Below are positions 11,401 to 34,776 of a stretch of DNA of 42,012 nt, piece by piece. This stretch comes from Phycisphaerales bacterium (GTDB taxonomy: Bacteria > Planctomycetota > Phycisphaerae > UBA1845 > Fen-1342). The DNA lies in contig PMMM01000171.1 of assembly GCA_003162245.1 (NCBI GenBank), forward strand, positions 13,578 to 55,589. The letters are read 5' to 3'. Position 1 is the stretch's first letter. Each line of letters starts with the position of its first letter. The notes below the pieces were generated by a model that saw only the letters and a program-made list of their open reading frames with translations, ran no database searches and was not told the DNA's origin. The translations under genes and the position numbers were made by a program.

Positions 11401-11514
11401 CCACAACTCCGGCGGAAACTCGGCCCCGGCCAAACGCTGGAACTCCGGCGTGTTCGCCAGCTCGTCCAAGCTACGCCAGTAGGCGAGTGCAGCGTGTTCT
11501 GGTCCGTGCTTCAC
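8404..11514 (-). CDS. actB: alternative complex III ActB (molybdopterin-oxidoreductase-like domain plus FeS domain)
   Basis: Large peripheral electron-transfer subunit. The chosen start is the GTG at 11514, which overlaps the actA TGA (GTGA) and gives 1036 aa. A longer upstream extension would lie inside actA. A canonical twin-arginine motif, SRRQFLK (residues 50-56), precedes a hydrophobic stretch ending MTGC (Cys70, a possible lipobox). Residues of about 100-730 form the molybdopterin-oxidoreductase-like domain, which in ACIII carries no cofactor. The C-terminal ferredoxin-like domain has Cys groups at 781/784/787/791 ([11 protein letters not shown]), 841/844/849/853 ([13 protein letters not shown]), 873/879/883 ([11 protein letters not shown]) and 944/947/975/979. 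Family knowledge assigns three [4Fe-4S] and one [3Fe-4S] cluster to such a domain. Confidence 0.95.
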
Positions 11515-12245
11515 CGGTGACACACCGAGCAAGTTTGCATGTACTCCACGCCGCGGATGTTGTAGTCCTGCATCAGTCGCCGTCCGAGGTCGGCGCGGGC
11601 GTCGCCGGGCGGCGGCATCCACAGCATGTCCGTGATCGCTTCGAGCGGCCGGAGGTTTGGGGCCGGATCGCGGTGACACTCGAGGCACCAGCCCATGCTG
11701 AGCGGCTTGGCCTGGTAGACGACCTCCATGCGGTCGATCCGGCCGTGGCACGTGACGCAGCCCACGCCGCGGGTCACGTGCGCGCTGTGGTTGAAGTACA
11801 CGTAGTCCGGCAGGTCGTGCACGCGGACCCACGGGATGGGCAGGCCGGCGGGCACGCGTTCACTGCCGTAGTACGCTTCCTGCAACACCGCCAACTTCGG
11901 ATTCGGCAAACCGGTCGCGGCCCGCACGCGGATGCCCGTCTGGTTGTTGTGGCAGTTGATGCAGGTTTGCGTGGGGGGCAGGGCGGCGGTGGCGGCGCGC
12001 TCGACGGTCACGTGACAGTAGCGGCAGTCGATGCCCAGCTCGCCGGCGTGCATGGCGTGGCTGTACGGAATCGGCTGCGGCGGCGAATAGCCGACGGCGG
12101 TGGCCAGCGGCGAGGCCCCGTAGGTCACCAAGAGCACGGCGTACGCGGGGAGTCCGAGCACGACCACGAGGATCAGCGCCCGGAGCTTGTTCGTCCACTT
12201 TGGAAAGAGGAAGGACGCGATGGGACCGCCTCCTCGCTGGCTCAC
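11511..12245 (-). CDS. actA: alternative complex III pentaheme cytochrome c ActA
   Basis: First gene of the operon, 244 aa. One N-terminal transmembrane helix (about residues 23-43) anchors a periplasmic domain with five CxxCH heme motifs: CRYCH (74-78), CINCH (95-99), CVTCH (163-167), CLECH (187-191) and CSVCH (239-243, at the extreme C-terminus). Five hemes and this topology match ActA of Rhodothermus and Flavobacterium ACIII. The frame opens with GTG at 12245 without a clear Shine-Dalgarno. A promoter-like pair lies only 12-40 nt upstream, so the mRNA may be nearly leaderless. The stop overlaps the actB GTG. Start confidence is moderate and function confidence is high. Confidence 0.93.
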   Translation of the reverse strand: MSQRGGGPIASFLFPKWTNKLRALILVVVLGLPAYAVLLVTYGASPLATAVGYSPPQPIPYSHAMHAGELGIDCRYCHVTVERAATAALPPTQTCINCHNNQTGIRVRAATGLPNPKLAVLQEAYYGSERVPAGLPIPWVRVHDLPDYVYFNHSAHVTRGVGCVTCHGRIDRMEVVYQAKPLSMGWCLECHRDPAPNLRPLEAITDMLWMPPPGDARADLGRRLMQDYNIRGVEYMQTCSVCHR

Positions 12246-12256
12246 CGAACGCGAAG

Positions 12257-12285
12257 ATCATGGGGTCCCGCCCGCGCGCGGTCAA
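12257..12285 (-). promoter_or_regulatory. candidate sigma70-type promoter of the act-cox operon
   Basis: Reading the minus strand, TTGACC (12285-12280) and CATGAT (12262-12257) are separated by exactly 17 nt. They match TTGACA 5/6 and TATAAT 4/6. Transcription would begin about 12250, just ahead of the actA GTG at 12245, giving an almost leaderless message. It is the only good pair seen in the GC-rich region upstream of the operon. Confidence 0.5.
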
Positions 12286-12464
12286 GGGGCGGGGCGGCTT
12301 GGCACGCCGGAGGCCGCGTAGGACGCAACGGCGTGAAGGTTGCCAACTTCGCCACGGCGCGCTACCCCTCTGTTGGCAACCTTCGGCCGGCGGGGCCGGG
12401 GAGCGGTTTCGGGCCGGCGGGCGCGGTCAAAGACCGGTTTCGGCCCGGCGCGCGGTTGGCGTCC

Positions 12465-12563
12465 GATCCGAACCCCGCACGCGAGTGCGGGGCGCCGCGG
12501 GCTGTGGTCTGATCCGAGCCCCGCCCGCGAGTGCGGGGGGCGTCCGAACGCGAGGGCGGGGCG
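12465..12563. repeat. cluster of short GNRA-loop palindromic repeats
   Basis: Related units start at 12465, 12511 and 12542, each beginning GATCCGA or GTCCGA. Unit 1 contains a perfect palindrome at 12473-12492: arms CCCCGCAC and GTGCGGGG around a GCGA loop. Unit 2 (12519-12538) keeps the same arms and GCGA loop with one mismatch. Unit 3 is a shortened copy, and a degenerate fourth lies near 12591-12619. The opening CCGAGCCCCG and the CGCGAG loop region recur in the alaS repeat array at 31540-31683. Both contain a GNRA-type tetraloop, suggesting a family of small hairpin elements that may act as RNA. Confidence 0.7.
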
Positions 12564-12686
12564 CGTCCGAACACGACGTGAGCGGGCGCCGTCCCGAACC
12601 GCGCCCGTAAGGAAAGCGGTGCCCCGCAATCCGAACCGCGCCGTGCCATTCACGTCGCGCGCCACCCCATCCCCGTATTACCGCCT

Positions 12687-14101
12687 CTAGCACGACGTCC
12701 GACGCAGCGCGCCCGCGCCCAGCGCGCCAACCGCCAGCAACAGCACCGCGGAGGGTTCAGGCAGTACGTTCAACATGATCCACTGCGTTGCTGGTACGTC
12801 CAGGGCCGAGGTCGTAAAGTTGTCGGTCAGGTCCGCCAGGTTGGCCAGTGTGTTGAATGTGAAGTCGATGCCCACCAGCCCTGCTTCTTCGGCCGGCGAC
12901 AGGCCCGCGCCGAACATGTTCGTGTCGATGAACTCGTTCAAAAACAACGAGGCCCCCCGGGCTGATAACGCAGGCGTCGTGATGGCCAGTTGGTCAAAGA
13001 GCGCAAAACTGTCAACCGGATTCGTCTGCGTGGTGTCGCGCAGCACGAAGTCCCCGAGCTGGCCAGCGAACGACAATTCGCCGTTGGGGTCCGTGAGCGA
13101 GACCTGTGCCCCGCCGAACCGGAACGCGCCGTCGGGGTCGCGTCCAATCAGCGGCATGTCCCCGACGACCAGGTTGCTGTTGAGCACCGGATCATTGCTG
13201 TAGCGCGGGTCGATGCCGCCGGACTGCCCGCCCACCGTATCGAGGATGTCGAGCGCGCCGGTGGCGAAGTGCAAACGGCCGCCGCCCGCGCCGTCGGCGA
13301 TGAACGACACCTGCGATCCGGACCGTCCATCCTTCTTGGCGCCGACCCCCTTACCAGCCGGCACGGATCGTGTCGGAGGCGGAGGCGGAGTCACGTGGTC
13401 CGCCTTGATCTTGTATTCGCTGATCAATTTTCCGACCCAGACCGGGGGCTGGCCCACCTCCTGCTGATTGAACAAGAGCTGCTCGTCGACGCTATACGTG
13501 TCCATGTGGCCATCCCCTTTATGGAGCACCTGCCCATGCGCCGCCGTCCTTACCGGCGCGTCGCTCGCAAACGTGACCTTCGTCGGGTTTGTAGTGATCA
13601 TCGGCAGCGGGCTGTCCGGTTTGTCGCCGGGGGGATGGGGCGCAACCTTGTGAACGCCATTCATGCCGGTCACGACGTTCCTCGCAACCGGTTGTTGGTT
13701 AGGGGGAGGGGGAGGGGGGGGGTTAGGCTCAGGGATCCGGCGTACATGTACAAGGTGAACTGCCAATTGTTAGACGTATACGACACCGGCCAGGCGAGCG
13801 GATTCCCGTCAGGGTCCGCCAGGACACCATCGGCGTTTTTGTCGATGCCCTTACAGGTGCCGTCTTTGATCTCGAGGTGAGTCGGGGTGTCGCTAACGAC
13901 CTCGGGCTTGACCACCTCCTCAGCGCCATCAGCTACAGGATCATCACCCTTAACCGCGGGCGAACCCTAGAATCCCAGCAGCGCGACGGGCAAGCACACC
14001 AGCCATCCGCCCGCGCCGGCTTGCAGCAGGACGCCGCCTGCGCGAAGGGCCGACCTGATGTGGCGACAAATCTTCAGCATTTGCAGTGGCTTGGGCAACA
14101 T
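12687..14101 (-). pseudogene. PEP-CTERM exported protein gene, disrupted by an amber stop and a poly-C frameshift
   Basis: Three reading-frame pieces line up as one gene. (1) From ATG 14101, 8 nt after a strong AAGGAGG, a 44-codon frame encodes a signal peptide-like leader: a basic KICRHIRSALR, then hydrophobic residues ending GGWLVCLPVALLGF. It stops at TAG 13969-13967. (2) The same frame continues after the TAG (GSPAVKGDDPVADGAEEVVKPEV...) to about 13715. (3) Across the tract C9-T-C5-T-C5 (13722-13702) the frame must change to reach the long C-terminal part, read from there to 12687. That part has Pro-rich linkers, a beta-rich domain and the terminal sorting signal LPEPSAVLLLAVGALGAGALRR, a textbook PEP-CTERM. 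No known function. It could be a decayed gene, a phase-variable gene or a sequencing artefact. Confidence 0.7.
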
Positions 14102-14616
14102 CTGCCATCTCCTCCTTTTCGCGAGGCGCCGCGCTGGTCGTCGTGCCTCGGCGCCAAAACCCGCAACGACTCCTCCGCGCCGTGCCAATGTGCTGCAGGG
14201 CGCACGCACCACAGACTACCACCCCATAACAGCGTAACACGGCAGCAGCCGCCCTCGCCAGTCGGTTCTTGAGCTGTCAGCTCCGGAGCCGACAGCGGCC
14301 AGCCGCGTACCGGCTGCAAAAGGGGCGGGAGCGGGCTGCGCGGCTCGCAGACCGGCGCCAGGAAGGACTCGTGCAGGCGGATGGCCAGCTCCATCCGGCT
14401 GGTGACCTCCAGTTTCTGGTAGAGGCGTTCGACGTGCGTCCGCAAGGTGTGGGGGGATATGTCCAAGCGGCAAGCGATGGCCGATTCCTCGTCATCCCGG
14501 AAAATACACTCGACGATCCGACCCTCGCGGCGCGACAAACGCAGCCGAGCGCGCAGAAGAGCGAAGGCGCGCTTGTCCAGGAACCGGGGGAGCATCGCGC
14601 TCGTGGTTTCAGCCAT
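14074..14616 (-). CDS. LuxR-type helix-turn-helix protein without receiver domain
   Basis: The start ATG at 14616 follows GGAGG with 8-nt spacing, and the frame gives 180 aa. Residues of about 26-85 are a GerE/LuxR-like DNA-binding domain: LSRREGRIVECIFRDDEESAIACRL, then SPHTLRTHVERLYQKLEV and SRMELAIRLHE. There is no receiver, PAS or sensor domain. The part beyond residue about 95 is low in recognizable structure and may be poorly conserved. The 3' end overlaps the start of the PEP-CTERM locus by 28 nt, and both lie on the minus strand, so the protein may regulate or simply precede that gene. The long frame upstream of 14616 is antisense to the ABC genes and is not included. Confidence 0.6.
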   Translation of the reverse strand: MAETTSAMLPRFLDKRAFALLRARLRLSRREGRIVECIFRDDEESAIACRLDISPHTLRTHVERLYQKLEVTSRMELAIRLHESFLAPVCEPRSPLPPLLQPVRGWPLSAPELTAQEPTGEGGCCRVTLLWGGSLWCVRPAAHWHGAEESLRVLAPRHDDQRGASRKGGDGRCCPSHCKC

Positions 14617-14937
14617 TGGTGCACCTCCGTCGCCGCTGAACAGAAGCGGGATTTCCAGCGAACGGGGCAGACGCGTGTTTCCTGTCCTTGCCGCCCGCGG
14701 ACGACACGCGGTTGCCGTTGGTGTCGCACCGGTACGCCCGCGCGATGTTCGGATCCAGCCTGCGCGGCGGCCCCACCAACCCGTGCCCGGTGAGCCCGCC
14801 TGGAGGCGCGCCGGCCAGTAAACCCTGTCCCCGGCGGCCCCGCAGAATTCCCCGCGCCCACAGAGAATAGTCACACCCGGCGGGCCCCGCGCTGCTGACG
14901 TGTCAACGCGACGCGCTCGGGCTACGATACTAAGCGG
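14617..14937. other. 321-bp intergenic stretch between divergent genes
   Basis: It separates the leftward LuxR-like gene from the rightward exported-protein gene. One minus-strand frame at about 14760-14660 contains YRCDTNGNRV, which fits the RHS/YD-repeat core Y-x-x-D-x-x-G-N-R. It has no start, flanking repeats or domain, so it is at most a small remnant. Just before 14938 the sequence TACGATACT could be a -10 region, but I see no convincing -35. Confidence 0.45.
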
Positions 14938-15825
14938 ATGCTCAACCGGTGGATCGGCATTTTGTCCGTCGCCGCGATGCTGCTCGCGAATGCGGCGATC
15001 GTTGTGCAGGACGTGCTGCCGCGGTGGTTTCCCGATGACGCGCCGCCGTCGGAAGCGCAGCTCCTGAGAGCGGGCGAGCGCCGGCAGGTGCAGGTGGGGA
15101 TCTATCACGCCGACGGCTGGCCCGTGGGATGTAGTTGGACGCGGAGCCATCGCAAGGCGGTGGGCGGCATCGTGCAGGTCGTGACGACGACGGTACTGGG
15201 GCCGATCCGGTTGTCCGGGGGCATGGCGGTGCCGCGCGTCCGGGTCGAGACGGAAATCACCTACCGCGCCAACGAGCTGCGGGTCGACGAGCTGGAGTTC
15301 AGCATGTTCGGGCTGGGCCTGCCGATCTCGCTCCGCGGCGCGGCGATGTCGACCGGGGAGTTCGCCGCGCGGTGGCAGGTCGCGTCGCAGCGCGGCGATT
15401 TCATCCTCGACGCCGGGGCACCGGCGGCGCTGGGCGACGTGATTCGGCCGTTCGACCGCTTGCCCGACCTGCACGTCGGTCAGAGGTGGCGGCTGGAGCT
15501 GCTCGATCCGCTGTCGCACATTCTGCCGCAGCTCCGGGACAGCGGAGTGGAGTTGGAGCCGATCGTGATCCGCGTGACGGGCAAGACGACCATCACGCAC
15601 CAGGGGCAGCCGGTCGAGACCTATGTGGTGGACGGCGGCAGCGCGACGGCCTACGTCGCGGAGGACGGCCGGGTCCTGCGGCAGGAGGTGGATGTGCCGC
15701 TGCTGGGGCGGCTGGTCCTGCTGGACGAGCCGTACGACGAGGCGGCCCTGGAGCGGGCCAAAAGGTCGGTCGCGGTGGACTGGGAAGCGGGGCGGCTTGA
15801 CAGGGACGCCGCAGGCGGGGAATAA
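14938..15825 (+). CDS. predicted exported or membrane-anchored protein paired with an ABC ATPase
   Basis: This 295-aa protein belongs to no family I recognize. The N-terminus (MLNRWIGILSVAAMLLANAAIVVQDVLP) is a signal anchor. The rest is soluble and beta-rich, with alternating hydrophobic strands, several VRVTGKTT-like and VDVPLLGRLVLL segments and a Gln-x-Val motif. It resembles a periplasmic or lumenal sensor-type domain but has no cysteines, lipobox or catalytic motif that I can name. The ABC ATPase begins 7 nt after its stop on the same strand, so the two form a short operon and probably act together. No permease gene is present next to them. Confidence 0.75.
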   Translation: MLNRWIGILSVAAMLLANAAIVVQDVLPRWFPDDAPPSEAQLLRAGERRQVQVGIYHADGWPVGCSWTRSHRKAVGGIVQVVTTTVLGPIRLSGGMAVPRVRVETEITYRANELRVDELEFSMFGLGLPISLRGAAMSTGEFAARWQVASQRGDFILDAGAPAALGDVIRPFDRLPDLHVGQRWRLELLDPLSHILPQLRDSGVELEPIVIRVTGKTTITHQGQPVETYVVDGGSATAYVAEDGRVLRQEVDVPLLGRLVLLDEPYDEAALERAKRSVAVDWEAGRLDRDAAGGE

Positions 15826-15832
15826 CGGGCAC

Positions 15833-16624
15833 ATGACGAGCGAACCCACGTCCGAGCAGCCGGTGCCCGAGGCCACCGTGGAGATTGAGGGCGTGACGAA
15901 GACCTTCGGCGAGAAGGTCGCCGTGAAGGACCTCACGCTGTCGTTGCGGGCGTCCGAGCTGTTCGCGTTTCTCGGGCCGAATGGGGCGGGGAAGACGACG
16001 ACGCTGAAAATGACCATCGGGCTGCTGCGGCCGGACGTCGGGGCGATCCGCGTATGCGGCCGCTCGATGCGGCAGGACGGCCCGGCGGCCAGGCAGCAGC
16101 TCGCCTACGTGCCCGACCAGCCGTTCGTCTACGAGAAGCTCACCGGGCGCGAGTTCATACGGTTCACGCGTGAGATGTACGGGGTCCCGGAGCAGCTCGC
16201 GGAGGAGCGGCTGGCCGAGCTGACCCGGCGGCTGGCGATGGATGAGTTCCTCGACCATCTGTGCGAGACGTACAGCCACGGGATGAAGCAGAAGCTGGCG
16301 CTAACGGCGGCCCTGATCCACACGCCGCGGGTGCTGGTGGTGGATGAGCCGATGGTCGGGCTCGATCCGCGGACCGCGCGGGCGATCAAGGACATCTTCC
16401 GCGAGCTGACCGAGCGGGGCGGCACCGTGTTCATGAGTACGCACACGCTGGGGGATGCGGAGCAGATGGCCGATCGCATCGGCATCATTCACCACGGGCG
16501 GCTGGTGGCGCTGGGGACGCTGGCGGAGCTGCGGCGGCAGTCGGCGATCGACGGCCGGTTGGAGGACATTTTCCTCCGGCTGACGGATGAGGAGGCAGGC
16601 GGAGCCGCGCCGCCGGCAAAGTGA
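15833..16624 (+). CDS. ABC transporter ATP-binding protein, orphan
   Basis: This 263-aa nucleotide-binding subunit of an ABC-2-like exporter class follows the exported-protein gene by 7 nt. The chosen start is the ATG at 15833, because the longer frame overlaps the previous gene. Walker A is GPNGAGKTT (48-56), the Q-loop region is YVPDQPFVYEKLTGREF, Walker B is VLVVDEPMVGLDP (about 167-179) and the H-loop is STHTLGDAEQ. The signature loop reads YSHGMKQK instead of LSGGQ. That form is common in the DrrA/CcmA/YhaQ-type branch whose partners are ABC-2 permeases. No permease lies adjacent, as the next gene (glpX) is on the other strand. The substrate is unknown. Confidence 0.9.
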   Translation: MTSEPTSEQPVPEATVEIEGVTKTFGEKVAVKDLTLSLRASELFAFLGPNGAGKTTTLKMTIGLLRPDVGAIRVCGRSMRQDGPAARQQLAYVPDQPFVYEKLTGREFIRFTREMYGVPEQLAEERLAELTRRLAMDEFLDHLCETYSHGMKQKLALTAALIHTPRVLVVDEPMVGLDPRTARAIKDIFRELTERGGTVFMSTHTLGDAEQMADRIGIIHHGRLVALGTLAELRRQSAIDGRLEDIFLRLTDEEAGGAAPPAK

Positions 16625-16679
16625 GCACGGGGGCGCGTCGAAGCTCGGGGGACAATCCTCGGCGGTCGCCGGCGCGGGC

Positions 16680-17750
16680 TTACAGGTGCGTATGCTGCGA
16701 CGTGCTCGCCAGATGGATCGTCTTGTACGTCAGGTCGTGGAAGGCCTTGATGTAGCGCACGGTTCGCGAGTGGGCCCGCATGACGACCGAGTAGGTGACG
16801 GCGATGTGGCCGTTGACCTGCACGCCGCGGAGCATCGTGTTGTCTGTGATGCCGGTGGCGACGAAGACGATGTCCTCGCCGACGGCGAGATCGGTGGTGG
16901 TGAAGATGCGTTTCATCAGGTCGCCGTGGCCGTCGGCCTCGAGCTGCTTGCGCTCGTCCTCGTCGCGGGGCCAGACGCGGGCGAGGATCTCGCCGCCCAT
17001 GCAGCGGATGGCGGCGGCGGCGACGACGGCCTCGGGCGAGCCGCCGATGCCCATGTACAGATCGACGCCGCTGTCGGGATCGCTGGGGGCGATGGCGGCG
17101 GCGACGTCGCCGTCGCCGATGAGGCGAATGGCGGCGCCGGTACGGCGGACGTCCTCGATGAGCTTCTGATGGCGTGGGCGGTCGAGGAGGCAGACGACGA
17201 GGTCGCGGACGCGTTTGCCGAGCTTGAGCGCGACGATTTCGAGGTTCTGCTCGATCGGGGCGCCGACGCGGACCGTGCCGGTGCCTTCGCGCACCTTGGG
17301 TCCGAAGGCGATTTTCTCGACGTAGAAGCTCGGGATCGCGGCCAGGGTGCGGTGATCGGCGCCCGAGCTTTTCGCGGCGGCGATGACCGTCAAGGCGCCG
17401 GCGAGACCCTTGGAGGTCAGGGTGGTGCCGTCGATGGGGTCGACGGCGATGCTGACGACGGGGGACCCCTCGCGCCAGGTGCCGAGCTTCTCACCGACGA
17501 AGATGCCCGGGGCCTCGTCCTTGATGCCTTCGCCGATGGTGCAGGTGCCGCACATGTCGGTGAGGTTCAACATGCCGCGGAGGGCGTCGGTGGCGGCGGC
17601 GTCGGCGGCCTCCTTATCGCCCTTGCCGATCCAGTGGAAGACGTTGAGCGCGGCGCCCTCGCAGGCGCGGAGCAGGTCCATCCCGATCAGCTCTTCGTCC
17701 TGCGTGTCCGACGCCTCCGCCGCGAACGACCCGCGCTCCCTTTCAGGCAT
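16680..17750 (-). CDS. glpX: class II fructose-1,6-bisphosphatase
   Basis: Hydrolyses fructose-1,6-bisphosphate to fructose-6-phosphate in gluconeogenesis and, in some bacteria, in sugar-phosphate recycling. Diagnostic segments are GIGDK-type IGKGDKEAADAAATDALR near the N-terminus, TIGEGIKDEAPGIFVGEKLG, the metal and phosphate motif VDPIDGTTLTSKG, and DLYMGIGGSPEAVVAAAAIRCMGGE. From ATG 17750 the protein has 356 aa, near the usual 320-340. An upstream ATG at 17804 would add 18 residues, and neither start has a strong Shine-Dalgarno. It converges on the ABC ATPase gene. The transketolase gene lies nearby on the other strand, which is metabolically related but not the same operon. Confidence 0.93.
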   Translation of the reverse strand: MPERERGSFAAEASDTQDEELIGMDLLRACEGAALNVFHWIGKGDKEAADAAATDALRGMLNLTDMCGTCTIGEGIKDEAPGIFVGEKLGTWREGSPVVSIAVDPIDGTTLTSKGLAGALTVIAAAKSSGADHRTLAAIPSFYVEKIAFGPKVREGTGTVRVGAPIEQNLEIVALKLGKRVRDLVVCLLDRPRHQKLIEDVRRTGAAIRLIGDGDVAAAIAPSDPDSGVDLYMGIGGSPEAVVAAAAIRCMGGEILARVWPRDEDERKQLEADGHGDLMKRIFTTTDLAVGEDIVFVATGITDNTMLRGVQVNGHIAVTYSVVMRAHSRTVRYIKAFHDLTYKTIHLASTSQHTHL

Positions 17751-17895
17751 GACAATACCCCATCGTGACCCCGTTGTTCCCTGGACGCCTTGTGACGACA
17801 TCATGCGCGCTCAGCCTACCGCGGACGCTAGCGGGTTTCCAGGGCGCCAAGCCCCGGGGGACGCGCGGCGACACAGCCGCGACAAGTGGAGGTAC

Positions 17896-17968
17896 GCGCC
17901 CGGAGGGATTCGAACCCCCAACCCTCGGCTCCGAAGGCCGATGCTCTATCCAGTTGAGCTACGGGCGC
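17896..17968 (-). tRNA. tRNA-Arg (anticodon TCG)
   Basis: On the minus strand 73 nt fold as a complete cloverleaf. The acceptor stem is GCGCCCG with CGGGCGC. The D-arm has GCTC paired with GAGC, the anticodon stem has TCGGC paired with GCCGA around loop CTTCGGA, and the variable loop is GGGTT. The T-arm has a GGGGG/CCCTC stem with loop TTCGAAT. Loop positions 34-36 read TCG, which decodes CGA arginine codons. CCA is not encoded. It lies between glpX and rpmH, both on the same strand. Confidence 0.96.
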
Positions 17969-18079
17969 TGAGGCTCAACAGCGTTATACAAATGTGGCGG
18001 GGTCGTCACAAGGCCGGGGCGGCGCGTGAAGAAGAGGAGGCGGCGCCTGGCGGAAAGCGGGCGACACAGAGCCGACCCG

Positions 18080-18214
18080 TTACGCGACGCTCACCTGGCG
18101 GCCGGCGCGGCGTTTACGGTTGATGAGCTTACGGCCGTTGTGCGTGCGCATGCGTACGAGGAAGCCGCACTTGCGCTTGCGTTTGATCTTGCTGATGCGA
18201 TGGGGGTAATGCAT
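18080..18214 (-). CDS. rpmH: 50S ribosomal protein L34
   Basis: A 44-aa highly basic protein. The core SKIKRKRKCGFLVRMRTHNG, followed by GRKLINRKRRAGRQ, is the classic L34 pattern (consensus K-R-x-R-x-x-G-F-x-x-R-M-x-T-x-x-G-R-x-x-L-x-x-R-R). The N-terminus is MHYPHRIS. A weak purine run, GAAAGGCTGG, lies upstream of the ATG. In most bacteria rpmH is followed by rnpA and lies by dnaA. Here the next thing downstream is the tRNA-Arg, and no rnpA frame is present. A promoter with an inverted repeat lies about 70 nt upstream. Confidence 0.95.
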   Translation of the reverse strand: MHYPHRISKIKRKRKCGFLVRMRTHNGRKLINRKRRAGRQVSVA

Positions 18215-18271
18215 GACGTTTCCAGCCTTTCATCACCGCCGGGGCGGCGGGTCAGCGTTCGTCCACGAGTT

Positions 18272-18311
18272 CCGAGCCCCTGAGTATCGCAGATTTGGGG
18301 CTCGGCGCCAA
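18272..18311 (-). promoter_or_regulatory. rpmH promoter with inverted repeat flanking its -10
   Basis: Reading the minus strand, TTGGCG (18311-18306), 17 nt, GATACT (18288-18283). Both hexamers match the sigma70 consensus at 4/6. Perfect 9-bp arms CCGAGCCCC (18272-18280 on the plus strand) and GGGGCTCGG (18297-18305) enclose the -10 in a 16-nt loop. This is an operator-like arrangement or a relic of the palindromic repeat family. Transcription would start near 18276, leaving a leader of about 60 nt before rpmH. Confidence 0.5.
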
Positions 18312-18324
18312 CCCGTCGGCCGCC

Positions 18325-18353
18325 TTGCCCGCCATGTAGCCGCTCGCTAGACT
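18325..18353 (+). promoter_or_regulatory. candidate promoter of the transketolase gene
   Basis: TTGCCC (18325-18330), 17-nt spacer, TAGACT (18348-18353). The -35 matches TTGACA at 4/6 and the -10 matches TATAAT at 4/6. It lies 52 nt before the chosen tkt ATG. It is divergent from the rpmH promoter about 14 nt away. Confidence 0.4.
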
Positions 18354-18405
18354 GCCCGCTCCTTCGGGGGCGTCAAGCGATGGGCTGGTGGTTGGGAGTG
18401 CGGGT

Positions 18406-20358
18406 ATGGCGCTGGCGGCGGCGATTCAGCGGAAGGCGGCGGAGCTGGGCAAGTTGGTGGTGGAGATGACCGCGAAGGCGGGGTCGGGGCATCCGTCGAG
18501 CGGGCTGTCGCTGGCCCACATCGTCACGTACCTGATGTACCGGCAGATGCGGTACGACCTGGCGGACCCGTGGAACCGGAACGCGGATCGGCTCGTCCTG
18601 TCGCAGGGGCACGCGGTTCCGATAATATACGCCGCATACGCTGATCTGGGCGGGACCGTGGGCAAAAGCGTGGCCGCGGCGAAGCCGCTGACGATCGCCG
18701 ATCTGGACCAGCTTCGCACGCGGGACAGCGTGCTCGATGGGCACCCGAACCCCGCGGAGGGGTTTCCGTTTTTCGATGCCGCCACGGGGAGTCTCGGGCA
18801 GGGGTTGAGCGTCGCGGCGGGGCTGGCGCTGGGGGCGCGGCTGGATGGGCGGGACCGGCGCTTCTATGTGCTGATCGGGGATGGCGAGTCGCGCGAGGGG
18901 CAAATCTGGGAAGCCGCCGACTTCGTCATGGACCACAAGCTGACGAACGTCTGCGCGGTCTTCAACGCGAACAAACAGGGACAGGCGGCCGACGTGTCGC
19001 CGCAGCAGTCGCACGAGCGGCTGGCGGCGAAGCTGCGGGCGTTCGGGTGGGACGTGATCGAGCTGAACGGACACGATCCGGACGCACTGGCGGCGGCGTT
19101 TGCCAAAGTCGGCACGACTGAGCGGCCGCTGGGGATCGTCGCGCGGACGATCAAGGGCTGGGGCGTCGAGCAGCTCACCAAGGGCAATTGGCACGGCAAG
19201 CCGCTGACGATGGCGGATTTGCCGGCGGCGTACGCGTCGCTCGACAAAACGGTGGCGGCGTACACGGGCGGCGAGGATTTGGGCCGGCCGCCGGCGCCGT
19301 CGCAGGGCGGATCGCCGCAGCGAAAGGACCCGCGCGAGGCGGTGTGGCCGACGTTCGCGGAGGCGATGGAGGGCGTCGAGCTCGGCGCGGTGCTGAAGAA
19401 GGGGAAGATGGCGACGCGGCGGGCGTACGGGGTGGGGCTGAAGGTCGCGGGGGACCTGATTCCGCAGGTCGTGTCGCTCGACGGCGACGTGGGCAACTCG
19501 ACGTTCTCCGACATCTTCGGGAAGGCGTACCCGGAGCGGTCTTTTGAGGGCAAGATCGCCGAGCAGAACCTGGTGTCGACGGCGGCGGGGCTGTCGGCGG
19601 CGGGGTTCATCCCGTTCGTGAACTCGTTCGGGAAGTTCCTCGCGCGGACGTACGACCAGGTCGAGCTGGCCAGCATCTCGCGGGCCAATATCAAGCTGGT
19701 CGGGTCGCACGCGGGGTGTTCGCTGGGGGCCGACGGGCCGAGCCAGATGTCGCTGGCGGACGTGGCGTACTTCCGGGCCTACACGGCGGTGCGGAGCGAC
19801 GACCGAACGCGGCCGCTGGTCTGGCTGTTTCACCCCGCGGACGGGCTGGCGGCGTACAAGCTCACGCGGCTAATGGTCGAGCAGCCGGGGATGTGCTACA
19901 TGCGGACGCACCGGCCGGACGTGCCGCTGCTGTACGGCGAGGAGACGAGCTTCGAGCCGGGCGGGTTCCAGGTGGTGCGCGGCGGGGACGACCTCGCGCT
20001 GGTGGCGGCGGGGTACATGGTGCACGAAGCGCTGCGGGCGGCGGACCTGCTGGCGAAGCAGGGCGTGCGAGCCACGGTTATTGATGCGTATTGCCTGCCA
20101 ATCGATGCGGAGCGGCTGATGGAGGTGCTGGTGCGGGCGGGGGCGCAGGCGCTGGTGGCGGAGGACAACTACGGCGGCGGCGTGGGGGCGGCGGTCGCGG
20201 AGATCGCTGCGCGGACGTGCCGCGTGCGGGTCGATACGTTGTGTTGCCAGCGGATACCGAAGTCGGCGCTGACGGCGGATGACATACTGGACCTGTGCGG
20301 CGTGAGCGCGCGGCAGATCGCGGATCATGCGGCGGCGCTGCTCGCTCGTCCGCGCTAG
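18406..20358 (+). CDS. tkt: transketolase
   Basis: ThDP-dependent enzyme of the non-oxidative pentose phosphate pathway, 650 aa from ATG 18406. That ATG is preceded by GGGAG at 7 nt, while a GTG at 18388 is less likely. Visible features are the active-site His29 (GSGHPSSG), His69 (SQGHAVPI), the ThDP/Mg motif GDG (158-160) with ESREGQIWEAA, and NANKQGQ. The pyrimidine-binding domain carries DGDVGNSTFSDIF and the catalytic Glu in AEQNLVSTAAGL. A C-terminal transketolase domain follows (EALRAADLLAKQGVRATVIDAY). The N-terminal half most resembles the short metazoan-type branch (SSGLSLAHI) rather than the E. coli type. This is a comparison from memory. Confidence 0.95.
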   Translation: MALAAAIQRKAAELGKLVVEMTAKAGSGHPSSGLSLAHIVTYLMYRQMRYDLADPWNRNADRLVLSQGHAVPIIYAAYADLGGTVGKSVAAAKPLTIADLDQLRTRDSVLDGHPNPAEGFPFFDAATGSLGQGLSVAAGLALGARLDGRDRRFYVLIGDGESREGQIWEAADFVMDHKLTNVCAVFNANKQGQAADVSPQQSHERLAAKLRAFGWDVIELNGHDPDALAAAFAKVGTTERPLGIVARTIKGWGVEQLTKGNWHGKPLTMADLPAAYASLDKTVAAYTGGEDLGRPPAPSQGGSPQRKDPREAVWPTFAEAMEGVELGAVLKKGKMATRRAYGVGLKVAGDLIPQVVSLDGDVGNSTFSDIFGKAYPERSFEGKIAEQNLVSTAAGLSAAGFIPFVNSFGKFLARTYDQVELASISRANIKLVGSHAGCSLGADGPSQMSLADVAYFRAYTAVRSDDRTRPLVWLFHPADGLAAYKLTRLMVEQPGMCYMRTHRPDVPLLYGEETSFEPGGFQVVRGGDDLALVAAGYMVHEALRAADLLAKQGVRATVIDAYCLPIDAERLMEVLVRAGAQALVAEDNYGGGVGAAVAEIAARTCRVRVDTLCCQRIPKSALTADDILDLCGVSARQIADHAAALLARPR

Positions 20359-20379
20359 ACTACGCGAGTGGAACAGACC

Positions 20380-21387
20380 ATGAATCTGGTCACTGGTGGG
20401 ACGGGATTGCTCGGCAGCCATATCGTCGAGCAGCTTCGCAAGCGGAACATGCCGGTGCGCGTGCTGGTGCGGCGGGGGAGCGACCGGACGTGGTTGCAGA
20501 CGCAAGGCGTCGAGTTTGCGGACGGGGACATCACGGACCCGGCGTCGCTGCAGCGGGCGTGCGCGGGGGTGGACGTTCTTTATCACGCGGCGGCGAAGGT
20601 CGGCGACTGGGGGCCGTGGGAGGATTTCCAGCGGATCACGATTGACGGGACGCGGAACGTCGTCGAGGCGGCGGTGGCCGCGAAGGTCCGCCGGCTGGTG
20701 CACATCAGCTCGATCAGTTGCTACGGGTACCACACGAAAGACGGCACGGTCGATGAGACCTTCGAGCTGGGGTACAAGCTCTACAAGTGGGCGTACTACA
20801 GCCGGTCGAAGATCGCGGCGGAGCGGATTGCGTGGGAGGCGTACAAGGCGGGGCGGATCGAGCTGACGGTGATCCGGCCGGCGTGGATTTACGGCGAGCG
20901 CGACCGGACGACGATCGCCCGGCTGTACCGGATGATCAAGGCCGGGCAGGCGAAGATCCTCGGGCCGGGCGACAACCGGCTGAACGTCGTTTATGCGGGG
21001 AATATCGCGGAGGCGGCGGTCGCGGCGGCCGGGCGGGCGGACTGCAACGGCGAGGCGTTCAATTGCAGCAACGACGGCGAGATCACACAGCAGCAGTATT
21101 TTGACTTGCTGGCGCGCGCGATTGGGGCTCCGCCGGTGACGAGGCATGCGCCGTACCGGGCGGCGTACTGCGTGGGGTTCGTGCTGGAATGCCTGGGCCA
21201 CGCATTCAAATGGGCGAAGCCGCCGTTCGTCACGCGGTACGCGGTGTGGCTGATGGGGCGGCGGTCGTACTTTTCGGCGGAGAAGGCCCGGCGCGTGCTG
21301 GGGTGGAAGGCGACGGTGCCGTACGAGGTGGGGGTGCCCAACACGGTGCGGTGGTACGAGCAGAACGTGCTCGGCGCGGGTCGTTAG
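20380..21387 (+). CDS. NAD(P)-dependent epimerase/dehydratase (extended SDR)
   Basis: A Rossmann-fold nucleotide-sugar epimerase or 3-beta-hydroxysteroid dehydrogenase-like protein, 335 aa from ATG 20380. A GTG 12 nt upstream is an alternative. The N-terminal NAD motif is TGGTGLLG, the acidic residue region is DGDITDPASL, and the active-site Tyr140-x3-Lys144 pair is in AYYSRSKIAAERI. ISSISCYGY supplies the catalytic Ser/Thr. Near-family members act on sugar nucleotides or in hopanoid/sterol pathways (HpnA-like). The substrate is not evident here. It starts 21 nt after tkt and may be co-transcribed. Its 3' end overlaps the opposing hydrolase gene by 4 nt. Confidence 0.9.
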   Translation: MNLVTGGTGLLGSHIVEQLRKRNMPVRVLVRRGSDRTWLQTQGVEFADGDITDPASLQRACAGVDVLYHAAAKVGDWGPWEDFQRITIDGTRNVVEAAVAAKVRRLVHISSISCYGYHTKDGTVDETFELGYKLYKWAYYSRSKIAAERIAWEAYKAGRIELTVIRPAWIYGERDRTTIARLYRMIKAGQAKILGPGDNRLNVVYAGNIAEAAVAAAGRADCNGEAFNCSNDGEITQQQYFDLLARAIGAPPVTRHAPYRAAYCVGFVLECLGHAFKWAKPPFVTRYAVWLMGRRSYFSAEKARRVLGWKATVPYEVGVPNTVRWYEQNVLGAGR

Positions 21388-22160
21388 GGCCGGGGGGTCA
21401 CATAGCGTCTTGCCCACGTGGCCACCATGTCCGCGACAAAGCGGGCGTCGCTCTCGCGCGCCATGAGCAGGTGATCGGCGCCGTCGAGCGCAATGAAGCT
21501 CTTCGGGTGCCTGGCCGCGTCGAAGATCCGCCGGGCGTGGTCGATGTGCACGATGTCGTCGTCCGGGGAGTGGAAGATCAGCAAGGGCCGGCCGAGGTCG
21601 GCGATGGTCTGGCGGATGTCTTGTCGCCGCAGGTCGTCGAGGAGTTGGCCCTTGATCCGCACGGGGCGGCCCGCCACCTCGATTTGGGCGGATTCGTCCG
21701 GGGCAAGGTCGGGGGCCTGGCGCGACAGGAACTCGCCCAGGTGCACGGTCTCGCTGGGGGCGGCAATCGTCACGACGGCACGGGTCTCCGGTATGCGCGC
21801 CGCGGCGACCAGCACGGCGGTCCCGCCCAGGCTGTGGCCGATGAGGATTTGCGGGGCCCGATAAGCGCGGCGGAGAAAATCGGCCGCGGCGACGAGATCG
21901 TCGAGATTCGAGGTGAAGTTCGTGTCGGCGAAGTCGCCGCTGCTTTCGCCGAGGCCGGCGAAATCGAAGCGCAGCACGGCGATGCGGTGGTCGACCAATT
22001 CGCGGCCGATCCACGTCGCGGCCTTCAAGTCCTTGGTGCACGTGAAGCAGTGGGCGAAGATGGCGAAGGCCAGCGGTTCATCGGCCGGGATGTCGAGCCG
22101 GCCGGCGATCGACTGCCCTCCGGACCCCGGGAAATCGACTCGCAGTCGCTTCGGAATCAT
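21384..22160 (-). CDS. alpha/beta hydrolase, OsmC-associated hydrolase type
   Basis: A 258-aa serine hydrolase with nucleophile Ser110 in GHSLGG. The likely acid is in the SPDDDIVHIDHA loop (Asp near 200) and the His is in DGADHLLM (about 229). The pattern FAIFAHCFTCTKDLKAA, LRFDFAGLGESSGDFADTNFTSNLDDLVAAADF is the signature of the hydrolase half of bifunctional alpha/beta hydrolase-OsmC proteins. The OsmC half is absent, since the frame ends right after the hydrolase fold. It converges with the epimerase gene and diverges from the coiled-coil gene. The substrate is unknown. Confidence 0.9.
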   Translation of the reverse strand: MIPKRLRVDFPGSGGQSIAGRLDIPADEPLAFAIFAHCFTCTKDLKAATWIGRELVDHRIAVLRFDFAGLGESSGDFADTNFTSNLDDLVAAADFLRRAYRAPQILIGHSLGGTAVLVAAARIPETRAVVTIAAPSETVHLGEFLSRQAPDLAPDESAQIEVAGRPVRIKGQLLDDLRRQDIRQTIADLGRPLLIFHSPDDDIVHIDHARRIFDAARHPKSFIALDGADHLLMARESDARFVADMVATWARRYVTPRP

Positions 22161-22430
22161 GTGCGCGCCTCCGGCGTCTGGAGCGATGCGGTCGCGGCTC
22201 AGGTGACCGCTGCGGTTGGCCGAATGTTATCGGCATCGGGCGGCGGCGGGAAACGGTGGGCGCAGCGGCCGGGGCGATGCCGGCTGAAGCTGCTTAACAC
22301 CGCGCACGATTCGGACGATGCACCCTCCGCAGGGCGGTTGCTGCGACAGCCGCGAGCGGAGCGCGCGGGAGATGGTGGTCTCTGCGCGAGTCCGAAAGGA
22401 GCGCAGCGGCAAAGAGCCGCGAGGTGCACG

Positions 22431-23843
22431 ATGAGCATGGCATCAACTCCAACTGAGGCGGTGGGCTTTGTGCTGACAACGCCCGCGCCGGGCACCGGGC
22501 TGCGCAAGACGCAGCGGCCCCCGGGCAGCCGGTCGGAACGCTGGAAGCGCTTGTGCAACGATCTTTCCGAGCGTGCCGAGGCGTTGCGTCGTTTGCGCGA
22601 CGACATTGCGCCGCGTGCGGCGGAGCTGGAGCAGCGCGCGCAAGAGCTGGAGCAGCGCTGCCGGAATGTGGACGCGCGGGCGGCCGAGCTGGAGGAAGCG
22701 AGCCGGCGCAGCGAAACGCTGGCCGGGGACATCGAGCACCACGCGGCGGAACTGCAGGCGCACCAGGAGGAGATGGAGGTCCAGCGGCAGGCGTTGGAGG
22801 CGCGCGAGGGGGACCTGCACGCGCGGACCGCGGCCCTGGAGGAGCGGGGCAACAACCTCGCGGCGCTCACGCAACAGCTCAACGAGCGCCGCCAGGAACT
22901 GGATACGCGGGCGGTTGAGTTGAACACGCGGGCCAGCGGCCTGGCGGCCGAGGCCCAGGCGGTGGACGAGCGACGGGTCGCGCTCCAGGCTCTGCAAGAC
23001 GAGCTGAAGGGGCGGGCCGGCGATCTGGACGAGCGAACCCGGGCGCTGACCGCGCGGGGCGACCGCCTCGAGCAGCAGGCGCGCACGTTACAGGACGGCA
23101 GCGCGGCGCTGGAGGAGCGCAGCCGGGCGAGCGAGGCGCGCCAGGCCGAGCTGGAAACCTGGGCGGCGCGCGTGCAGGAGCACGAGCGGGCGCTGCAAGG
23201 CGCGACCGAGGAATTGGCGCAGCATCGCCGCGAGTTTGAGGCCCAGCGGGCGGACTGGGAGCAGCGGCGGACGGCGCTCGCGCGCGAGCTGGAAGAGCAG
23301 AAGACGGCCCTGACGTTACGGGCGCAAAAGCTGGAGGAGCAGGAGCGGGCGGCGAGCGCGGCAAACGAGGAGCTGAAGCAACGGCGGGGCGCGCTGGAAG
23401 CTCAGGCGGCCGAGCTCGCGCAGCGCCAGGAAGCGCTGACGGGCCGGCAGGCGTTGCTCACGGAACGCGAGGAACAGGCTGCGCGGCGCGAGCAGGGCCT
23501 GCGCGATTGGCAGGCCAAGCTCGAGGCGAACGCGGCGAACGTTCAGCAGGAGCTCGCACGCCTCGATGGCCGCGAGCGGGCCATTGAACGCCGGACTGAG
23601 GAGCTCGCGGCTCAGGAGCGTCGGATGGGCGTGCGGCGAACCGAGTTCGAGCGCCGGCAGGCCGGGTTTGACACGCGCGTCCGCGCCCTGGCACGCTGGA
23701 TTGCGGCGTACGTGGGGTCCGCACGGGAAGCGGGCCGCGAAGAGGCGCCTGCCTTGAACGGCAGGCTGTCGCCGGAGGGCGATGAGATGGTGATGAGCCA
23801 GCCGGCGAACGCTGAACCAGCGGAGACTTGCTTGAACGAGTAA
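22431..23843 (+). CDS. long coiled-coil protein
   Basis: The start ATG at 22431 follows GAGGTG, and the protein has 470 aa. From about residue 30 to 420 it is almost uninterrupted heptad-like sequence of the type R/E-x-x-x-L-x-x-R, very rich in Glu, Arg, Ala, Gln and Leu. Short N- and C-terminal segments are non-helical. The last 40 residues (RWIAAYVGSAREAG..., then acidic) lack coiled-coil pattern. There is no signal peptide, no membrane segment and no catalytic motif. It could be a cytoskeletal or scaffold protein, a chromosome-associated protein, or a repeat-driven structural protein. Function unknown. It is divergent from the hydrolase gene, with 270 nt between them. Confidence 0.8.
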   Translation: MSMASTPTEAVGFVLTTPAPGTGLRKTQRPPGSRSERWKRLCNDLSERAEALRRLRDDIAPRAAELEQRAQELEQRCRNVDARAAELEEASRRSETLAGDIEHHAAELQAHQEEMEVQRQALEAREGDLHARTAALEERGNNLAALTQQLNERRQELDTRAVELNTRASGLAAEAQAVDERRVALQALQDELKGRAGDLDERTRALTARGDRLEQQARTLQDGSAALEERSRASEARQAELETWAARVQEHERALQGATEELAQHRREFEAQRADWEQRRTALARELEEQKTALTLRAQKLEEQERAASAANEELKQRRGALEAQAAELAQRQEALTGRQALLTEREEQAARREQGLRDWQAKLEANAANVQQELARLDGRERAIERRTEELAAQERRMGVRRTEFERRQAGFDTRVRALARWIAAYVGSAREAGREEAPALNGRLSPEGDEMVMSQPANAEPAETCLNE

Positions 23844-23906
23844 GCGTTCAGGCAACCGCCCGGCGCGGCGGCGAAGCCTCGACGATGCGCCTATGATGCG
23901 CAGCTC

Positions 23907-24884
23907 ATGGGCGCTGATGAGTTGGTGGCCGACGTGCCGGTTGCTGCCGGGTCCGCCGTCGCTGGGACGGCAACGCGGGGGCGGGTCCGTGCGGGGGTGC
24001 TCTACGGCGTGGCGGCCTACGGCCTCTGGGGGTTCTTTCCGGTTTACTTCCGGGCGATCCGGCAGGTCCCGCCGCTGGAGATCGTGTGCCATCGGGTGAT
24101 CTGGTCGCTGGCGTTTCTGTTGATCCTGATGGCGCTACGGGGCGGCTGGCGGGCCACGCGCGCGGCCGTGCGGTCGCGGCGGAACGTGGTCACGCTGGGC
24201 GCGACCACCCTTCTGATCGCGGGTAACTGGCTGGTATTCATCTGGGCCGTGGCGCACGACCAGGTGCTGGAGGCCAGCCTGGGGTACTTCATCAACCCGC
24301 TCGTGAACGTCGTGCTGGGGTTCGTTTTTCTGCACGAGCGGCTGCGGCGCTGGCAGCTCCTGAGCGTGGGACTCGCCGCCGCCGGCGTGGCGTATCTCAC
24401 GCTTGCGGGCGGGCATTTGCCGGGCGTGGCGCTGTTCCTGGCGGGGACGTTCGCGTCCTACGGTCTGTTGCGGAAGATCGCCCAGGTCGACGCCCTGGTC
24501 GGCCTCACGGTCGAGACGGCGTTGCTCGCACCGCTGGCCTTGGCGTACCTCGCGTACCAAATGGCGCACGGCACCATCAGCTTCGGGCACGGGGCCCTGA
24601 GGGTGGACGGGTTGCTTCTGTTGGCGGGCGTCGTCACCGCGGCCCCGCTGCTGTGGTTCACGGAGGCGGCGCGCCGGCTGCGCCTCACGACGATGGGCTT
24701 CCTGCAGTACATGACCCCCACCGGTCACTTCCTGCTGGCCGTGTTCGCGTTCGGGGAGACCTTTCGGTGGACACAGGGCGTCGCGTTCGCCTGCATCTGG
24801 GCCGCGCTGGCGACGTACTTGCTCGAGGCGGCCACCCGAGCGCGCGCGGGGCCCGCGGTCAGCCTGCCGCCGGGGATGGAGTAG
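23907..24884 (+). CDS. rarD: RarD/EamA-type membrane transporter
   Basis: A 325-aa ten-helix drug/metabolite transporter of the RarD branch. The family signature runs through GVLYGVAAYGLWGFFPVYFRAI and PPLEIVCHRVIWS, then TLLIAGNWLVFIWAV, EASLGYFINPLVNVVLGFVFLHERL and GFLQYMTPTGHFLLAVFAFGE. The cargo is not known; E. coli RarD is associated with chloramphenicol sensitivity only. The start ATG at 23907 precedes an extra hydrophilic N-terminus of about 25 residues before the first helix. Short 63-nt spacing from the coiled-coil gene allows co-transcription. Confidence 0.93.
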   Translation: MGADELVADVPVAAGSAVAGTATRGRVRAGVLYGVAAYGLWGFFPVYFRAIRQVPPLEIVCHRVIWSLAFLLILMALRGGWRATRAAVRSRRNVVTLGATTLLIAGNWLVFIWAVAHDQVLEASLGYFINPLVNVVLGFVFLHERLRRWQLLSVGLAAAGVAYLTLAGGHLPGVALFLAGTFASYGLLRKIAQVDALVGLTVETALLAPLALAYLAYQMAHGTISFGHGALRVDGLLLLAGVVTAAPLLWFTEAARRLRLTTMGFLQYMTPTGHFLLAVFAFGETFRWTQGVAFACIWAALATYLLEAATRARAGPAVSLPPGME

Positions 24885-25643
24885 CTGGCGCAAAAGAATA
24901 GGCCGACGCCGGTTGTCCAGTCGCGCCGCTCGGGAAAGGGTGAGCGTTGGAAGCGAAGATCTTTCCCGCGCACCGCGGTCGACAGCCGCATGCCGGCCTA
25001 TCGGCCCGTCCCGTCTTGCCGACACCGTGTCCGGAGCGTTTCGCCGCACGGACTCGGCCTATGAGTCCTGGCGTTCGGGGGCGAAGCCGATGGCGTAACT
25101 AAGATGAGTCAGCGAGCTTACAGATACTCCTCGCCCCTCGCGCTACGCCTACTCCCACTCCGCGACGCAGCCCGATGGTGCGTACGCCGCAAAGCGGACT
25201 CCGTTTGACCTGGTTTGCGCGCACCGAACGATAGCCCGCCGGCCTAGACATGCGGCCGCGCTCTTGTACGCACTACAAACCGTGAGACTCTGATCATGCT
25301 TTGCGAAACACCGTCCGCGCGACACGGACTGGTTCACCCCCGCGCCATTGCCCGGTCCTTCACCAACGACCACAACCCAGCGTGCCCTACAGACCGGGAG
25401 GCGCCCTTCTTTCCACTTCACGTCCTATTATAATCGCGCGAGCGGCCGTGTGTCAATCCGGCGTGCTCTTATCGCACGCTCGGCGTGCGACGCGTGTGCG
25501 ATGGTTCTTTGCACGGCGCCGCATCCGCACGTAAGATCGGGGCTCGCGCAAGGGCTTCCTGCGTACCGTGTTAAGGTCGTGTTGCGCCGCCGCAACGGCA
25601 CCGGCCACCAGCGACCCTGCGGCGGCGGTTTGGAGCATGAGGC
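24885..25643. other. 759-bp intergenic stretch before prpE, no gene identified
   Basis: It is less GC-biased and less codon-structured than the flanks. Short frames exist (for example 24913-25098 on plus, 25149-25421 on minus), but none has a family pattern or good ribosome-binding site. A TATAAT hexamer at 25429-25434 is a plausible -10, without a strong -35, about 210 nt before prpE. I see no tRNA, repeat or terminator-like hairpin that I trust. Confidence 0.5.
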
Positions 25644-27545
25644 ATGAGCAGTTCGCAGTACGACGCCGCCTATCGACGGTCGCTGCAAGATCCGGAAGGC
25701 TTCTGGGGCGACGCAGCCGAGGCCATCCACTGGACGCGGCGCTGGACGCGCGTGCTGGACGACTCGCGCAAGCCGCTCTACCGCTGGTTCGTGGGCGGCG
25801 AGCTGAATACGTGCTACAACGCGCTCGACCGGCACGTCGAGCAGGGGCGCGGCGACCAGGCAGCGCTGATCTACGACAGCCCGGTGACCGGGACGCTCCG
25901 CAGCTTCACGTACCGCGAGTTCCGCGACCTGACCGCACGGTTCGCCGGCGCGTTGGTGCAGCAGGGGGTTCGCAAGGGCGACCGCGTCGTCATCTACATG
26001 CCGATGGTGCCGGAGGCGCTCATCGCGATGCTCGCGTGCGCGCGGATCGGGGCGATCCACAGCGTCGTGTTCGGCGGGTTTGCGCCGAAGGAGCTGGCGA
26101 CGCGGATCAATGACGCCAAGCCGAAGCTCATCGTGTCGGCGTCGTGCGGCGTCGAGGGGAAGCGCGTCATTCCGTACAAGCCGCTGCTGGACGAGGCGAT
26201 CCAAATGGCGGCGAGCAAGCCGGAGCATTGCATCATCGTGCAGCGTCCGCAGGCGGCGGCGGCGCTGATGCCGGGGCGCGATCTGGACTGGGAAGCGGCG
26301 ATGAAGGCCGCGACGCCGGTCGATTGCGTGCCGTTGGCGGCCACCGACCCGCTCTACATTCTCTATACCTCCGGCACGACGGGCATTCCGAAGGGCGTCG
26401 TACGCGACCACGGCGGGCACGCGGTCGCGATGCAATGGACGATGAAGAACATCTACGACGTGCAGGCGGGCGACGTGTACTGGGCGGCGTCGGACATCGG
26501 GTGGGTCGTGGGGCATTCGTACATCGTCTACGCGCCGCTGCTGGCGGGCTGCACGACGATCCTGTACGAGGGCAAGCCGGTCGGCACGCCGGACGCGGGG
26601 GCGTTCTGGCGGGTCATCGCGCAGCACAAGGTGAACGTGCTGTTCACGGCGCCGACGGCGTTTCGGGCGATCAAACGCGAGGACCCGGAGGGGAAGCACA
26701 TCGGGAGGTACGATCTCGGCAGCCTGCGGGCGCTGTTCCTGGCGGGCGAGCGGTGCGATCCGGACACGCTGGTGTGGGCGCAGCAGCGGTTGGGCGTGCC
26801 GGTGATCGACCATTGGTGGCAGACGGAGACGGCGTGGGGCATCGCGGCGAACTGCATGGGCCTCGGCATGTTGCCGGTGAAGCCAGGGTCGCCGACGAAG
26901 GCGTCGCCGGGGTACGACGTGCGGATTCTCGACGAGGCGGGCGACGTGGTGCCGCCGGGGAAGACCGGGAACATCGTCGTGAAGCTGCCGCTGCCGCCGG
27001 GGTGCCTGCCGACGCTGTGGGAGAACGACGCGGGGTACGTGGATTCGTACTTGTCGCGGTATCCGGGGTATTACCTGACGGGTGACGCGGGCTATCAGGA
27101 CGAGGACGGCTATCTGTACATCATGAGCCGGATCGACGACATCATTAACGTCGCGGGGCACCGGCTTTCGACCGGCGGGATGGAAGAAGTGCTGGCGGCG
27201 CACCCGGATGTGGCCGAGTGCTCGGTCATCGGCGTGGCGGACGGGCTGAAAGGCGAGGTGCCGGTCGGACTGGTGGTGCTGAAGGCCGGGGTGCGGCGGC
27301 CCGAGGCGGAGATCGTCAGCGAGCTGGTGAAGATGGTGCGCGACAAGATCGGGGCGGTGGCGTCGTTCAAGAAGGCGGTCGTGGTGGGGCGGCTGCCGAA
27401 GACGCGCTCGGGCAAGATCCTGCGCGGGACGATGAAGAGGATCGCGGACGGCGCGGAGTACAAGGTGCCGGCGACGATCGACGACCCGGCGATCCTGGGC
27501 GAGATTCGCGAGTCGCTGGGGCGGATTGGGTATGCGCGGGAGTAG
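25644..27545 (+). CDS. prpE: propionyl-CoA/acetyl-CoA synthetase (PrpE/ACSS3-type)
   Basis: Adenylate-forming acyl-CoA ligase that activates propionate or acetate to the CoA ester in the cytoplasm, 633 aa. It has the acyl-CoA synthetase N-terminal domain (YDAAYRRSLQDPEGFWGDAAEAIHW), the P-loop YTSGTTGIPKGV (about 242), VRDHGGHAVAMQW, and DIGWVVGHSYIVYAPLLAG. The specificity and adenylate motif is DHWWQTETAW, the hinge is TGDAGYQDEDGY, and the catalytic Lys is in TRSGKILRGTMKRIADG, which is also the usual acetylation site. The VRDHGGHAVAM sequence and length agree with PrpE rather than Acs. The physiological substrate remains to be shown. A GGAG stretch lies upstream of the ATG. Confidence 0.92.
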   Translation: MSSSQYDAAYRRSLQDPEGFWGDAAEAIHWTRRWTRVLDDSRKPLYRWFVGGELNTCYNALDRHVEQGRGDQAALIYDSPVTGTLRSFTYREFRDLTARFAGALVQQGVRKGDRVVIYMPMVPEALIAMLACARIGAIHSVVFGGFAPKELATRINDAKPKLIVSASCGVEGKRVIPYKPLLDEAIQMAASKPEHCIIVQRPQAAAALMPGRDLDWEAAMKAATPVDCVPLAATDPLYILYTSGTTGIPKGVVRDHGGHAVAMQWTMKNIYDVQAGDVYWAASDIGWVVGHSYIVYAPLLAGCTTILYEGKPVGTPDAGAFWRVIAQHKVNVLFTAPTAFRAIKREDPEGKHIGRYDLGSLRALFLAGERCDPDTLVWAQQRLGVPVIDHWWQTETAWGIAANCMGLGMLPVKPGSPTKASPGYDVRILDEAGDVVPPGKTGNIVVKLPLPPGCLPTLWENDAGYVDSYLSRYPGYYLTGDAGYQDEDGYLYIMSRIDDIINVAGHRLSTGGMEEVLAAHPDVAECSVIGVADGLKGEVPVGLVVLKAGVRRPEAEIVSELVKMVRDKIGAVASFKKAVVVGRLPKTRSGKILRGTMKRIADGAEYKVPATIDDPAILGEIRESLGRIGYARE

Positions 27546-27585
27546 CGGGTGGCGTGCTCGGCACGCGGGCGTGGTGCGTGACGGA

Positions 27586-27611
27586 GGGCCCGCGCAGGAC
27601 TGTGCGGCCCC
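27586..27611. terminator. hairpin between convergent prpE and the DUF4276 gene
   Basis: Arms GGGCCCGCGCA (27586-27596) and TGTGCGGCCCC (27601-27611) pair over 11 positions with one C-C mismatch and one G-T, enclosing a GGAC loop. It sits between two convergent gene ends (27545 and 27638), where a shared bidirectional terminator would be expected. There is no T-run, so rho-independence is uncertain. Confidence 0.5.
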
Positions 27612-27637
27612 CTGGGGTGACCGTGCTGCACCGATCG

Positions 27638-28267: not shown

Positions 28268-28271
28268 CCCC

Positions 28272-29231: not shown

Positions 29232-29322
29232 TTCAGGCTCCGCCCGGCTTGGCTGAGCTGTCTCGGACGCTGCAATCCTCGCCCCAAGCGATGCCGCGGT
29301 CAAGCCGCGAGGCCACCGTCGC

Positions 29323-34746: not shown

Positions 34747-34776
34747 GCGTCGGCGGGTAGTTACGGCGCGGCTGGT

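Follow-up and report, generated by a model that had tools for sequence, protein, structure and literature searches.

The window, the whole 42,012-nucleotide stretch that was analyzed, belongs to contig C244, which comes from a 4.76-Mb assembly (264 contigs, 96.8% complete) with 2-base N gaps. Between a multiheme cytochrome gene and a divergently oriented neighbor, it carries a LuxR-type regulator followed by a coding-like region that begins with a leader and ends with a PEP-CTERM-like tail (Table 1). This region falls into three pieces. The leader, which is signal-peptide-like as judged by eye rather than by a predictor, is closed by an in-frame TAG; a middle piece then continues directly in the same frame, which stays free of stops until a TGA at 13672 on the minus strand; and a C-terminal frame, which lies at −1 relative to the leader frame, opens past a TAA at 13772 and closes at a TAG at 12689, also on the minus strand.

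Table 1. Coordinates of features at the locus, numbered by window position
Feature	Position	Strand	Basis or remark
Multiheme cytochrome gene (flank)	11511-12245	-	Profile search
C-terminal frame, 359 codons from the first TTG, with PEP-CTERM-like end LPEPSAVLLLAVGALGAGALRR	12687..13766	-	Codon score, profile searches
Stretch bound to hold the frame shift	13672..13772	-	Stop positions in both frames
C9-T-C5-T-C5 tract	13702..13722	-	C9 at 13714-13722 (G9 on +), C5 at 13708-13712, C5 at 13702-13706
Middle piece, in the leader's frame, coding-like	13690..13966 (lower bound approximate)	-	+0.39 per codon, no stops
In-frame TAG closing the leader	13967..13969	-	Translation, frame analysis
Leader, 44 residues, basic N terminus and then a hydrophobic stretch	13970..14101	-	Codon score +0.31
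Start codon (ATG) of the leader frame	14101-14099	-	Read from sequence and translation
Strong Shine-Dalgarno-like AAGGAGGAG	14117-14109	-	7 nt before the start codon, read from sequence
LuxR-type HTH regulator, upstream of the PEP-CTERM gene in the same direction	14074..14616	-	Pfam GerE, 7.3e-12
Stretch repeated elsewhere	14159..14843	-	85 to 86% identity to two places in the same genome (G000) and one in the sister species (G001)
Unnamed flanking gene	14938-15825	+	Divergent to the cytochrome gene

The per-codon scores of the leader and middle piece (Table 1) and of the C-terminal frame (+0.40) are all positive, while wrong frames range from −0.66 to −0.83; the 11 confident genes of the window, on which the score was trained, reach 0.54 to 0.81. 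Over the middle piece, one alternative frame contains 9 stops and scores −0.83, and the other contains 3 stops and scores −0.68. Since all three pieces are coding-like and wrong frames are negative, their arrangement in two frames exceeds what chance would give. Frame analysis, translation and codon bias thus bear out the original prediction of such an arrangement, with a leader followed by an in-frame TAG and then by the same frame onward. A long open frame on the plus strand (12990-13880) was considered as a gene and rejected at −0.07 per codon, which is not coding-like. Structure prediction for the C-terminal part gave a mean pLDDT of 31.5. An Rfam search of 11500-15500 gave no match, and a scan of 12240-14960 for promoters and terminators returned no terminator and one promoter-like site, with none preceding the PEP-CTERM gene.

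The PEP motif of the C-terminal frame is plain by eye, and its tail scores just under the cutoffs of both profiles (Pfam PF07589, 16.8 bits versus 20.7; TIGR02595, 15.8 versus 16). Two exosortase genes are present in the genome (PF09721, E values of 4e-49 and 6.8e-17). Across the whole genome, 12 other PEP-CTERM genes were found at an E value of ≤0.001, a set from which the gene in the window is missing because its tail scores below the threshold. Each of the 12 is a single open frame that begins at a plausible start, encodes a hydrophobic leader and extends to the tail. At the locus, the signal-peptide-like leader and the tail do not share one open frame, being separated by both the TAG and the frame difference.

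One might suppose that the C-terminal protein is a gene in its own right, started separately behind a short leader peptide, and its long, clean frame would suit such a design. However, the start of the C-terminal frame shows, by eye, no signal peptide, which exosortase sorting requires, and the coding-like middle piece would have no place. We therefore regard two genes by design as very improbable.

The frame shift must lie between the stops that bound the two frames (Table 1), and the C9-T-C5-T-C5 tract, which reads the same in the window and at the matching place of the contig, lies within that stretch. The original prediction had placed the slip at this tract. While the C9 run does fall inside the possible stretch, a codon statistic for the shift site peaks slightly downstream of it, at 13682, with positions 13693-13681 within about 3 log units of the maximum; positions 13705-13711 are 6 to 10 log units worse, and the C9 run is about 10 worse. 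This argument against C9 is weak, since the region is proline-rich and of low complexity. C/G runs of at least 9 number only 20 in the genome, about half of what a Markov estimate based on a 97-kb sample would give (roughly 43). When these 20 runs were scanned for frame switches, several had faint coding signals that were one-sided and changed frame, and some of these runs lie near contig ends or N gaps.

A phase-variable surface gene, switched by slippage at C9 and caught in its off state, was among the options originally raised. In its favor are the position of C9, inside the only stretch able to hold the shift, and the scarcity of such runs in the genome. Yet no change of tract length removes the TAG, so that slippage would not yield a full open frame; the codon statistic favors positions past the tract; and none of the 12 other PEP-CTERM genes contains a C/G run of at least 8, save for one G8 in the L002 stretch. 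Together, these three observations make slippage control improbable. If true, it would lack precedent among PEP-CTERM proteins as far as the accessible part of the PEP-CTERM literature on phase variation, frameshifts and pseudogenes extends, where no such case was found.

Full-length protein could also be produced by recoding, that is, by readthrough of the amber codon combined with a −1 slip of the ribosome or the RNA polymerase on the C run. The −1 offset of the C-terminal frame has the right sign, and C9 contains the motif C CCC CCC, but one gene would then need two rare recoding events. TAG is also an ordinary stop in this genome, terminating 9 of the 21 listed genes of the window, and no CUA anticodon was found among the genome's tRNAs (46 RF00005 places; 45 ARAGORN calls, all with standard anticodons; one RF00005 place, C226:3077-3136, without an ARAGORN call). 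Moreover, the homologue described below requires neither event. We consider recoding extremely improbable. Given that TAG is ordinary, that no CUA tRNA was found and that the sibling genes are without tracts, neither genome-wide amber recoding nor a C-tract habit of the family is seen.

The main rival to a decayed gene is an intact gene obscured by assembly or sequencing errors or by a consensus of mixed strains. The assembly is metagenome-like, with its many contigs and 2-base N gaps, G-rich runs are hard to sequence, and a span of about 650 bases holds three changes, all of which could point to error. We therefore compared the stretch at 14850-34800 with the sister species. The alignments covered 12,287 coding bases and contained 1,052 substitutions and 7 indels; every indel was at an extreme gene end or a multiple of three, and none broke a frame within a gene. 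A looser count with automatic gene calls gave 15 non-triplet indels over 15,117 bases, mostly at false gene calls or alignment ends. The lack of frame-breaking indels within genes over the 12,287 bases makes scattered assembly errors unlikely, including the two errors that had been proposed for this gene. In addition, the TAG would need a separate substitution error, and none of the 12 sibling PEP-CTERM genes is interrupted. Taken together, these data make the error reading unlikely, albeit less so than the other alternatives.

The regulator upstream of the PEP-CTERM gene also carries an indel. Relative to all three of its close copies, its C-terminal part is out of frame owing to an additional C within the 14322-14325 run. 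Its HTH part is still open, with a dN/dS of 0.38 to 0.46 against the three copies (0.17 to 0.34 among the copies themselves), and its private changes comprise 9 silent and 13 amino-acid-changing ones, compared with 2/1, 4/5 and 4/2 in the others. These dN/dS values indicate that the window's regulator has not evolved as dead DNA but is under some constraint in its HTH part.

Behind the regulator, each copy of the repeated stretch (L075; L076, G000:C171; L077, G001:C56) is followed by a PEP-CTERM gene. One LuxR-type regulator stretch thus stands ahead of PEP-CTERM genes of differing sequence at four loci shared out between two sister species, and judging from these arrangements, regulator and cargo look as if they formed a unit with exchangeable cargo. 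That such a unit of regulator and surface protein might be silenced and reawakened by means of the C tract and of an amber codon, open to suppression, where the signal peptide ends is, in our estimation, very unlikely. Dispersed intergenic repeats also occur in the window at 12288-12424 and 14657-14843, with many copies on many contigs of both genomes; the former contains the inverted repeat GAAGGTTGCCAAC / GTTGGCAACCTTC. Further dispersed repeats lie in a spacer between regulator and PEP-CTERM gene (L076:6230-6690); G000 has 29 matches to them and G001 has 46.

The position of the unit is unusual. In all 13 relatives in which both flanking genes were matched on one contig, the matched parts are separated by 159 to 381 bases, versus 2,698 here. 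Among the 26 relatives, the second flanking gene was found in 24 and the cytochrome gene in 20. In the sister species, the contig begins 543 bases ahead of the second flanking gene, and its first 486 bases have no match to window positions 12246-14937. No match to the PEP-CTERM gene was found in the sister species.

We searched 114 genomes of the order with a query in which the pieces were joined. Five genomes, including the gene's own, gave matches at an E value of ≤0.01, and only one of these matches (in G079) was clear, at 2.3e-26. The G079 homologue (L119:1180-3189) is a single uninterrupted frame of 669 codons, which the C-terminal frame alone matches with an E value of 7e-30 and 30% identity over 297 aligned positions. 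The middle piece alone matches it at chance level (93 of 1,000 shuffles reach the score; BLASTP E value, 1.0). Because the middle piece has no significant match of its own, the homologue supports the C-terminal part rather than the join; the evidence that the middle piece and the C-terminal frame belong together is their codon bias, their position and the search with the joined query. A search of genome contigs with the C-terminal protein alone gave no match, while a two-sequence alignment detected one locus (L128), apparently identical to G079:C425. The C terminus of the G079 homologue carries repeats that we take, by eye, to be dockerin-like. Homologous exported proteins thus appear with different C-terminal modules, a PEP-CTERM tail in the window and, by eye, dockerin-like repeats in G079.

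These results are best explained by decay, one of the options originally put forward: the locus is probably a pseudogene, whose product would have been exported and would have ended in a PEP-CTERM-like tail, and which arrived, together with its regulator, between divergent neighbors. Two independent disabling changes (the TAG and the frame shift), the indel in the regulator, the uninterrupted homologue of the C-terminal part elsewhere and the lack of a match in the sister species argue for it. Direct observation covers the frames and their lesions, the uncommon location and the intact similar units elsewhere. A unit of regulator and PEP-CTERM gene would have been inserted between divergent genes that lie close together in the family, and the PEP-CTERM gene would later have been disabled at least twice, by an amber stop closing the signal peptide and by a one-frame shift somewhere in 13672-13772, the latter possibly from slippage in the C-rich tract. 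We infer that living cells do carry the lesions, that the gene was once functional and that the events followed this order. Since translation from the proper start stops after 44 residues, no exported, sortable product would be expected. Counting against a pseudogene are the C-terminal frame, which lacks any further stop over 359 codons and has kept its codon bias, the open, constrained HTH part of the regulator and the chance-level match of the middle piece to the homologue. With a C-terminal frame that is still clean and biased, decay would have to be recent or partial. As a decayed gene, the locus matters little beyond annotation, where automatic gene calling would probably report the 359-codon frame, wrongly, as an intact PEP-CTERM protein.

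Several known systems resemble the locus in part. Like poly-C contingency genes, such as those of Neisseria, which undergo slipped-strand phase variation, it has a C9 run inside a coding stretch; as far as the available portion of that literature describes those genes, it differs from them in carrying a further lesion beyond the reach of slippage and in having sibling PEP-CTERM genes without such runs. The uncharacterized exported protein of G079:C425 (apparently from the Planctomycetota MAG B76T1L10, JADFPW010000104.1) is homologous to the C-terminal frame, but it is encoded in one open frame and has C-terminal repeats in place of a PEP-CTERM tail. With proteins sorted by the PEP-CTERM/exosortase system (PF07589, TIGR02595, PF09721), the locus has in common a PEP-CTERM-like tail at the extreme C terminus, which scores just under both profile cutoffs, and a genome with two exosortase genes and 12 further PEP-CTERM genes, whereas its leader and tail lie in different frames with a TAG between them.
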